64,000 bases of DNA, from NCBI GenBank assembly GCA_963513935.1, contig OY740769.1:35243120-35307119 (forward strand), written 5' to 3'. The notes below the pieces were generated by a model. That model saw only the letters and a list, made by a program, of their open reading frames with translations. It did not search any database and was not told the DNA's origin. Position numbers and translations under genes: made by a program. Position 1 is the first letter of the stretch. Every line of letters begins with the position of its first letter. Source of the DNA: Aphrophora alni. Taxonomy: Eukaryota; Arthropoda; Insecta; Hemiptera; Aphrophoridae. Of the stretch, positions 25,964 to 64,000 are shown in pieces.

Positions 25964-26302
<339 letters not shown>

Positions 26303-59340: not shown

Positions 59341-59511
59341 TGTGTACAAATTGTTATTTGCAAATTAAATGTTGTCAAGTGTTACACTATACCAATAACA
59401 TTATCTAATAAAGTAATATAGCTTGGTGGTAGCACATGTCATATTATCACTTTCATAAAAATTGTTACCGTAACGAAATAAGAGATTTAAATTTTACATA
59501 CATTTTTTCAG

Positions 59512-59986
59512 GAAGGTCTTTACTTTTGTTTCTGTCACCTTGCTGTTAACTAGCATGGTTGAAGGAGGACCCTTAGAAGGCTGGAAAAATGTTTACCAAG
59601 ACCATGTTTACCCCGGACGGCCAGGGAGAAAGCAGGAAATAAATGAAAATGATCTCCTGAATCTTTTAAAGCAACTCATAGATAAGAAATTAGATAAAAA
59701 CAAGAACGATGGCAAACAAATTCCTCCTGTGATGTATAATAATGGTTTATTACAAGATAACCAAAACAATCGTATTAACAGTCCATATCCTTTGGAGAAC
59801 ATAAACGATCATTTTAAAGTAAATAAACATAACGGTTTTTATGATGCATATAGTAATGAAAACCACGAACATGGTTACATACATGATAAACAGCCCTTAT
59901 ATCAAAACAATGGTTTAATGAACTACTACCTACAAAGGAAAGCCCTTACAGATCCTCGCTATGGTATTGGACTGGGAAAACTGTAG
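59512..59986 (+). CDS. Terminal coding exon of a secreted peptide / neuropeptide-like precursor (first exon not found)
   Basis: The frame is open from a polypyrimidine-AG acceptor (ttttttcag ending at 59511) to a stop at 59984-59986, giving 157 residues from 59513. The exon starts KVFTFVSVTLLLTSM, a typical hydrophobic signal-peptide core without a methionine before it. The initiator must therefore lie in an upstream exon joined by a phase-2 intron (one base, 59512, completes the split codon). Cleavage probably falls near VEGG at residues 16-19. A peptide then runs through W24 and two tyrosines to a PGRPGRK string (residues 34-40), where G38-R39-K40 is a classical amidation and dibasic cleavage site. 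An acidic/leucine amphipathic segment (43-57) and a K58-K59 pair follow. The remainder is rich in Asn, Tyr and His without cysteines and ends in GLGKL. Length, signal, processing sites and low complexity fit an arthropod neuropeptide or other secreted prohormone. I do not recognise the family; a cuticle or salivary secreted protein is the alternative. Codon composition is less AT-extreme than the flanks. Confidence 0.7.
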
Positions 59987-62510: not shown

Positions 62511-62640
62511 AATAAAAAAATTTAAACCACGTATATAAATAAACAAAGACCAGAGCACTGTGGTGACAATATATACAGATACACTTTCAAAAGTCCCTTA
62601 CCACACTTGGGAATAAACAAAATAACACAAAAAACAAAAT

Positions 62641-62816
62641 TTTTTTGTCAAAAGTAAAATGTTTATTCCTATTAGACCCTTATAGCTATTACAACAACAA
62701 AGTTGTCATCTTCAGAGGGAATCTTAACAAAGACTAAATTAAAACTATTTACAACTAAAGTGACCAGTTTCTCTACCCCACTCCTCTGGTGCATTGACCT
62801 ATCAACAATAGGGTTG
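62641..62816. mobile_element. Probable outer part of the Penelope-like left arm
   Basis: The sequence is less AT-extreme and contains, on the minus strand, ctctgaagatgacaac with a pairing gttgt just beyond. Strings of the type ctgaagatg...hairpin are frequent near the ends of Penelope-like elements. I infer that the inverted arm continues outward to about here, because the opposite arm runs off the window at 64000 before this part can be compared. Confidence 0.45.
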
Positions 62817-62960
62817 ACAGTTCAAACACCTGTACTGTGTTACCTGGAATGGGGAAGGCCCAATCCTCTAACAAACAAAGATGTTTTAGAATTTACAAAA
62901 TAATCATCCCTAAACTAATTATCTAAACATATTAACTAAATAATCATAGTAGATACAATT

Positions 62961-62991
<31 letters not shown>

Positions 62992-63104
62992 TATTATTTT
63001 TATTTTTTTTTTTTTAAATAGATGAATATAACTATTATCATAACATATTAAACAAAAATACGAATAATACACGCTATGTTACAAATATTATTAACATATT
63101 AAAA
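62817..63104 (-). mobile_element. Left inverted arm of a Penelope-like element (pLTR-like)
   Basis: These 288 bases are the exact inverse complement of 63713-64000 as far as I can read, including a 13-base homopolymer and a TTTTA-type array that would drift quickly. The arm ends abruptly at 63104, after which the sequence becomes endonuclease coding. Penelope-like elements characteristically carry long terminal repeats (pLTRs) in direct or inverted order, often joined to a 5'-truncated body. Confidence 0.85.
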
Positions 63105-63396
63105 CAAGGTTTATCTTGGCCAAACAAAGAGAAGAATCACGACTAGGTTTAAAGAACATTTGGCCCATTTAAAATACGACAGACCAGAAAAATCTAGTAT
63201 AGCGGAACATCTATTAGAAACTAACCATAACACAGACCTTAAAAATTTAAAATTGTTAAAAAAAGTGAATTCCAATAAATTATTAAATAGCTATGAAAGC
63301 ATATTAATTGCTAAGACTGAAAATTCAAAATTATTAAATTCTGACAAAGGCCCTATTCCTAATTCATGCTTGTTCTCTTTGTTACAACCAAGATAG
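63103..63396 (+). mobile_element. Penelope-like element, GIY-YIG endonuclease domain (5'-truncated ORF)
   Basis: The frame opens right at the arm junction (63103) and ends at a TAG at 63394-63396, about 97 residues. It reads VYLGQTKRR (the YIG half of GIY-YIG), ITTRFKEH (the catalytic Arg and the conserved Glu-His), SIAEHLLETNH (the conserved A.H....H region), and NSYESILI with the metal-binding glutamate candidate, then LLNSDKG and LFSLL. This order is that of the C-terminal endonuclease of Penelope-like retroelements. The upstream GIY half, the Cys linker and the whole reverse transcriptase are missing: a stop (63100-63102, in the arm) precedes the frame. The frame itself is unbroken, so the copy is recent. 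No initiator is expected, because it is a fragment. Confidence 0.85.
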
Positions 63397-63432
63397 ACCT
63401 TTTAGGTTGTTAAGCAATAGATTTCTTAGAAT

Positions 63433-63434
<2 letters not shown>

Positions 63435-63471
<37 letters not shown>
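63435..63471. repeat. Poly(T) tract, 37 T, in the 3' part of the Penelope-like element
   Basis: This is a T run about 40 bases after the endonuclease stop. It appears to belong to the element's 3' untranslated region. The frame crossing it is an artefact. Confidence 0.9.
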
Positions 63472-63475
<4 letters not shown>

Positions 63476-63712
63476 GTAAGTTATTATTTATATTTATCAT
63501 TAATATGCTGGTTTACTATATTAATAGAATTTTTTAGCATCATTCTTATGATTCATGTAAAAAATTTATTCTTGTATCTATTATTAAAGATTAACCTTTT
63601 TATGTTGTTATGGTATTTTCAGCATAGTGGTTTTTTTTAAAATTTTAAAAAAATTATTAATTTTTTTTATTTTAATTTTTTTATTCTTGTAAAAGTAAAT
63701 ATTTATATCTCA

Positions 63713-63825
63713 TTTTAATATGTTAATAATATTTGTAACATAGCGTGTATTATTCGTATTTTTGTTTAATATGTTATGATAATAGTTATATTCATCTATT
63801 TAAAAAAAAAAAAATAAAAATAATA

Positions 63826-63856
<31 letters not shown>

Positions 63857-64000
63857 AATTGTATCTACTATGATTATTTAGTTAATATGTTTAGATAATT
63901 AGTTTAGGGATGATTATTTTGTAAATTCTAAAACATCTTTGTTTGTTAGAGGATTGGGCCTTCCCCATTCCAGGTAACACAGTACAGGTGTTTGAACTGT
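63713..64000 (+). mobile_element. Right arm of the Penelope-like element (cut by window end)
   Basis: This is the exact inverse complement of 62817-63104. It continues beyond the window, because the match is still perfect at base 64000. The spacer between the arms is 608 bases and carries the endonuclease remnant. Confidence 0.85.

Follow-up and report, generated by a model that had tools for sequence, protein, structure and literature searches.

A probable young, 5′-truncated Penelope-like element with two 3′ ends head to head in Aphrophora alni, and the pairing of tailed with tail-less ends in its family

The window, a 64,000-nucleotide stretch of the Aphrophora alni genome (C4:35243120-35307119 in the 1.7-Gb assembly of 388 contigs that was searched), carries at its right end a large palindrome and, within it, part of a GIY-YIG endonuclease frame. 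The features of the locus are listed below. R positions are numbered from 63105 along the sense strand, with the tail last.

62528-62539, plus strand: left copy of the target-site duplication (TSD), 12 bp, CACGTATATAAA; the right copy, 64244-64255 (C4:35307363-35307374), lies beyond the window.
62540-62573, minus strand: tail of 34 bases, at the left end only and absent at the right end.
62574-63104, minus strand: left (inverted) arm, 531 bp, the 3′ UTR/pseudo-LTR part reversed; its outer edge is the no-tail start site.
62709-62715, minus strand: CTGAAGA, a hammerhead-like half-core in the sequence, followed by a possible 7-bp hairpin (by eye), with no GAAA.
62735, minus strand: mirror of R978 (TTTAGTC), the most frequent stopping neighbourhood of the arms of small members.
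63104/63105: head-to-head junction of the two copies, with at most one base shared at the join.
63106-63396, plus strand: C-terminal part of the GIY-YIG endonuclease, from K-VYLGQT to the stop; the GIY half is absent.
63397-63712, plus strand: 3′ UTR confined to the long arm, with T37 at 63435-63471.
63713-64000, plus strand: portion of the right arm within the window; the arm runs on to 64243, the tail-less end.

An earlier note, made from the window alone, had described two matching 288-base arms around a 608-base spacer, each with an A/T array and a 13-base homopolymer, and had seen the match continue to the last base of the window. The arms 62817-63104 and 63713-64000 are complementary at 288 of 288 bases, mismatches begin at 63105, and the A/T array with its 13-base homopolymer is present inside both. 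When the locus (L041) was read from C4:35302120-35312119, the palindrome proved to extend 243 bases further on each side, giving arms of 531 bp (62574-63104 and 63713-64243) that are identical at 531/531 bases (100%), the last part on host-contig sequence past the window end. The longest perfect inverted repeats within 5 kb measured 14–19 bases in 20 random sequences as long as the window, generated by a first-order Markov model; in the window itself, (AT)n arrays of 43 bases come next after these arms. A search of the window for further copies of the element found none.

The symmetry ends at 62574 and 64243, and the host DNA outside differs on the two sides. The left flank reads ...TTTAAAC-CACGTATATAAA and the right flank CACGTATATAAA-GCTAACGG..., placing the TSD at 62528-62539 and not near 62640, where it had been predicted and where none was found. 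Both outer ends of the insertion are element 3′ ends. The picture of an element lying inside a palindrome was thus wrong, the arms being the element's own 3′ ends, while the 5′ truncation and inverted terminal repeats of a Penelope-like element (PLE) that had been proposed are borne out. Inverted pseudo-LTRs, a 12-bp TSD and a 34-base tail, all features of EN+ canonical PLEs, are present, the tail falling within the 30–40 bp typical of such elements. The segment 62540-64243 (1704 bp) is very probably a young, 5′-truncated canonical GIY-YIG PLE insertion in which two 3′-end copies stand head to head, with a putative two-sided, target-primed origin.

Identity of 100% across 531 bp, homopolymers included, is also the typical look of a foldback arising in assembly or amplification, in which the second arm would be a template-switching artefact on one molecule. 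A foldback should leave flanks that mirror each other and should lack a duplication. Instead, the symmetry gives way to dissimilar host DNA, a 12-bp TSD flanks the element and only one side has the tail. These three observations exclude a simple assembly foldback at the window locus. The same plan, moreover, recurs at dozens of other places with different TSDs, and we consider a foldback of any kind most improbable.

The endonuclease fragment was assigned with a profile of 28 proteins gathered with a hand-written Penelope endonuclease consensus. It scores 61 bits against this profile, where the best of 1000 shuffles reached 10.4, which upholds the Penelope-type assignment of the earlier note; in an alignment of the fragment with 11 of the profile proteins, its Y2, G4, H34 and N77 fall in invariant columns. 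Relatives at E ≤ 1e-10 numbered 2546 among 7989 candidates scored, and the closest of these is 63% identical. Searched by itself, the 95-aa fragment matched nothing in Pfam or NCBIfam even at E 10, had only chance matches in the PDB, and found no relatives in a protein search or among viral contigs. A DNA pattern search matched the window and also 15 viral and 17 bacterial/MAG contigs, and a single-sequence AlphaFold model of the fragment was poor (pLDDT 49.8).

An intact 816-aa reverse transcriptase (RT)/GIY-YIG frame is found at L044 (RVT_1, 51 bits; GIY-YIG, 18.9 bits, under the Pfam cut-off of 22.6), and the fragment is identical to its end at 292 of 292 bases. The linker of the intact copy reads GIYEIKCNDC-DK-VYLGQT, and the window sequence resumes with the final base of the D codon; the junction 63104/63105 therefore lies within the endonuclease linker, between the GIY and YIG halves, as had been supposed. 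L048 holds two further intact RT/endonuclease frames, for a family frame size of 816–817 aa. Through L044 the family has the EN+ canonical plan of a single frame with RT and C-terminal GIY-YIG domains, of which the window copy keeps the endonuclease end only.

The divergence of the two arms was compared within and between insertions of this family. With gaps uncounted, the median was 0.56% within an insertion (n=21, from 24 insertions, those with at least 60 compared bases) and 1.25% between insertions (n=137 usable of 150 random pairs, six of them substitution-free). Again with gaps uncounted, arms without a substitution occur in L043 (526 bases), L046 (524), L062 (446), L072 (407) and L067 (349). 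The A/T array of the pseudo-LTR differs from copy to copy, and several insertions have a private array common to both arms; the match between arms is exact in L041 and near in L046 and L069, while the arrays are clearly different in L051 and differ in run length in L060. Given the within-insertion divergence and the shared arrays, both arms of an insertion were in most cases apparently copied from a single source RNA, or have been converted afterwards.

Higher arm identity within than between insertions would also result if an old insertion had its arms held identical by gene conversion. Against this stand the 292/292 endonuclease identity to the intact copy, the frequency of intact PLE frames and the substitution-free arms at the five other loci just named. 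Together, the endonuclease identity and the common intact frames mean that youth alone accounts for the identical arms, and gene conversion over a long period is quite improbable. Among the three causes offered earlier for the lack of divergence, foldback is thus excluded at this locus and conversion is unneeded; the best fit is a recent insertion whose arms both came from one RNA.

To place the window insertion among its relatives, 62 insertions of the family were examined in the genome, in two sets. Set 1 (34 insertions) was found with 62600-64000, which holds both window arms but lacks the tail; it gave 126 matches, and the best 40 of 1170 candidate places were scored. All listed places were taken as 35 regions (20, and 15 with shorter flanks), which resolve into 34 insertion events, 32 single and two in the clusters C2 (L048/L049) and C9 (L054). 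Set 2 was found with 181 bases ending in the tail (54 matches; best 40 of 1241 places scored), of which 28 insertions were new to set 1.

In set 1, 24 of the 32 single insertions have plain element ends on both sides, and closer reading added four (the clusters C2 and C9, L063 and L070). All 28 carry the tail at one end and stop at R1137-1147 at the other. The tail reaches R1171-1173 in 22 of the 24 with plain ends; in L071 it aligns to R1161 with a gap within the tail, and in L069 it is partial, to R1158 only, and a TSD is absent. The tail of L063 is about 10 bases long, and the no-tail arm of L070 is only about two dozen bases. Ends were unreadable in L050, L053, L055, L056 (a gap of N), L061 and L074. 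Set 2 was selected by the tail, and therefore only the opposite end counts as a test: it is readable in 23 insertions and tail-less in 23/23, and L078, L083, L085, L086 and L097 show no second end of either kind within the stretch fetched. With 11 of the 62 insertions unreadable at one or both ends, a tailed end paired with an end about 34 bases short is found in 51 of 51 insertions readable at both. Under a free and equal choice of ends, the arithmetic chance is 0.5^28 for the first set and 0.5^23 for the second. Because scoring took in only the best candidates of each search (40 places of 1170 in set 1, 40 of 1241 in set 2), the sample leans toward copies like that in the window. A further candidate regularity, that in every insertion the tailed arm is shorter than its partner, was dropped, since L043, L047, L058, L062, L073 and others show the opposite.

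For the Penelope elements of Adineta vaga (Pen2a and relatives), a 31-bp tail is described on one inverted pLTR and termed optional (PMC3846280), whereas exactly one tail is present here in each readable two-ended insertion. One tailed and one tail-less end as a strict rule, in the best-scoring copies of one genome, sharpens that description. No statement of such a rule was found in the PLE literature searched, though it may already be in print. The Adineta elements are otherwise similar: they have an RT/GIY-YIG frame, usually of 800–900 aa, direct and inverted pLTRs, and 5′-truncated copies between inverted pLTRs, with TSDs of 8–10 bp in several copies and none in some, against mostly 11–14 bp here (PMC3846280).

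TSD matches of at least 11 occur in 23 of the 32 single set 1 insertions and in 2 of 992 mismatched left/right pairs. A stricter search found a TSD in 42 of 52 insertions, 11–14 bp long in 38 of the 42 and exactly 12, the mode, in 20. On the no-tail side, G borders the TSD in 32 of 42 cases, and beyond it come positions rich first in T and then in A; the triplet ahead of the TSD on the tail side is most often A (30/42), A (29/42) and C (18/42). TSD calling biases the bordering base, and G was therefore compared with C alone: G exceeds C by 32 to 5 on the no-tail side (p 7e-6), with a G share of 16/21 in set 1 and set 2 alike, and C exceeds G by 18 to 6 on the tail side (p 0.02). The target resembles a loosely kept palindrome, AAAC-N12-GTTT, a form to be expected if the enzyme cuts both strands. 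The case for a stricter motif on one of the sides is suggestive at most (paired p 0.02), the bordering base being subject to the same calling bias.

Each insertion is most likely the product of two target-primed reverse transcripts joined together, one per cut strand, with different start positions on the RNA. The endonuclease would cut the two strands of the target 12 bases apart, and each freed 3′ end would prime reverse transcription of the element RNA. At the window locus, the cDNA of the left arm would start at the tail site and copy 565 nt, that of the right arm would start 34 bases upstream of the tail site and copy 1139 nt, into the endonuclease codons, and the two cDNAs would then be united by end joining. 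The two arms would be identical because both were copied from RNA of one locus. The inner joins of the 24 two-ended set 1 insertions show 0–13 bases of overlap or 0–3 bases of filler in 16 cases; the remaining eight include gaps of 14–69 bases (L064, L066, L068, L069 and L071) and long or complex joins (L051, L067 and L072).

A precedent for two-strand priming exists in LINE-1 twin priming, where the second cut strand primes on the RNA and produces an inverted segment. Priming by the second cut strand is alike in the two cases; in LINE-1, however, the inverted piece lies upstream and there is one 3′ end only, whereas here both outer ends are the same element 3′ end.

Another precedent is Poseidon of Anolis carolinensis (PAc). 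The mechanism of PLE transposition was described in 2024 as relatively little known, and in that paper the purified PLE protein nicks and extends both target strands, reverse transcription begins at two adjacent internal RNA sites bounding the tail, and the start sites used in vitro show no strand difference (PMC11167929). Poseidon and the present family share AT-rich targets and tandem arrays and, under the model preferred here, two adjacent start sites spanning the genomic tail and cutting and extension of both strands; they differ in that Poseidon has an ATT cut motif and no strand difference (PMC11167929), whereas here there would be one start site per end and there is an AAAC/GTTT-like motif.

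A coordinated two-sided reaction, with one start per cut, predicts the unlike ends observed, whereas snapback predicts like ends and free choice about half unlike. In snapback, the first cDNA or an antisense RNA would fold back on itself and be copied, which would give inverted ends. Such self-priming was proposed for rotifer Penelope from palindromes at inverted junctions (PMC3846280), and some small members of the present family (L076 and L095) do join their arms near the same base. A full copy back should, however, give like outer ends, and these are unlike in all 51 readable insertions; at many inner joins, too, the two arms break off at different points of the element. The prediction of like ends is less certain for the published version with an antisense-RNA template. 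We regard snapback as unlikely in this family and favour coordinated two-site priming, in a departure from the Adineta proposal (PMC3846280). Against the model, the in vitro start sites show no difference between strands, whereas the genomic pairing is strict; something more than free choice is needed.

It is possible, and in our estimation evenly balanced, that Penelope integration is here an obligatory two-sided reaction: both strands of every target site would be cut, at an almost constant stagger of about 12 bp, and each priming end would be tied to its own RNA start, the two starts being 34 bases apart, so that one tailed and one tail-less 3′ end always result. Such an obligatory reaction would yield small palindromic insertions from short transcripts and long insertions from tandem transcripts. 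If the rule is true, the inverted structures would arise directly from a coordinated reaction on the two strands and not by accident through self-priming, and strict pairing would make the unsolved mechanism of PLE insertion testable in any genome rich in PLEs as well as with the purified protein.

Set 2 consists mostly of small members, whose arms measure at most some 195 and 165 bases. Most of its 28 loci (L076-L103) are palindromic insertions of about 350 bp made up of two PLE 3′ ends only, which could be misannotated as foldback or MITE-type elements. In set 2, 22 of 28 arms with the tail and 9 of 22 without it stop at R969-992, around TTTAGTC with its A at R978. Among the arms of set 1, which the longer query picked out, none of the 40 listed (of 48) stops there, and nine stop at R725-755, in the A array. 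TTTAGTC resembles an insect initiator motif, and because of this likeness the R978 neighbourhood may be the RNA 5′ end of this PLE family.

Apart from the hammerhead-like half-core at 62709-62715, an Rfam search gave no hammerhead match at E up to 5 or up to 10. PLE hammerheads are described as minimal variants (PMC7761336). The Poseidon hammerhead cleaves with the protein present (PMC11167929), whereas none was recognised in the present family.

A second PLE family (840 aa) is present in the genome. In each of three full-length insertions read at both ends, the tail is on the left (query 189-192), the opposite end falls at 147-150, and a flank of 11 bases is shared; the three were found by their tail, and only the opposite end tests the pairing. 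Two more copies, in which right ends only were read, have the tail at the right end. Among scored matches to a distant relative, drawn from 18,727 first-look candidates, 53 of 55 are stop-free in the matched part. From these dozens of stop-free frames, the genome seems to hold very active Penelope elements of several families.

Tandem copies, a hallmark of PLEs, are present in L048/L049 inside one TSD. This array (C2:80957180-80965670) spans about 8.5 kb; its PLE units stand in tandem, two intact frames of 816–817 aa were seen in it along with one inverted end, and a single TSD flanks the whole as though it were one insertion event.

Elsewhere in the window, 59474-59986 (plus strand) holds a 170-residue open frame with the look of a small secreted precursor, including basic sites that resemble cleavage sites; it matches nothing in Pfam or NCBIfam. 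A (TC)n array of 336 bases at 25964-26299 is open in several frames.
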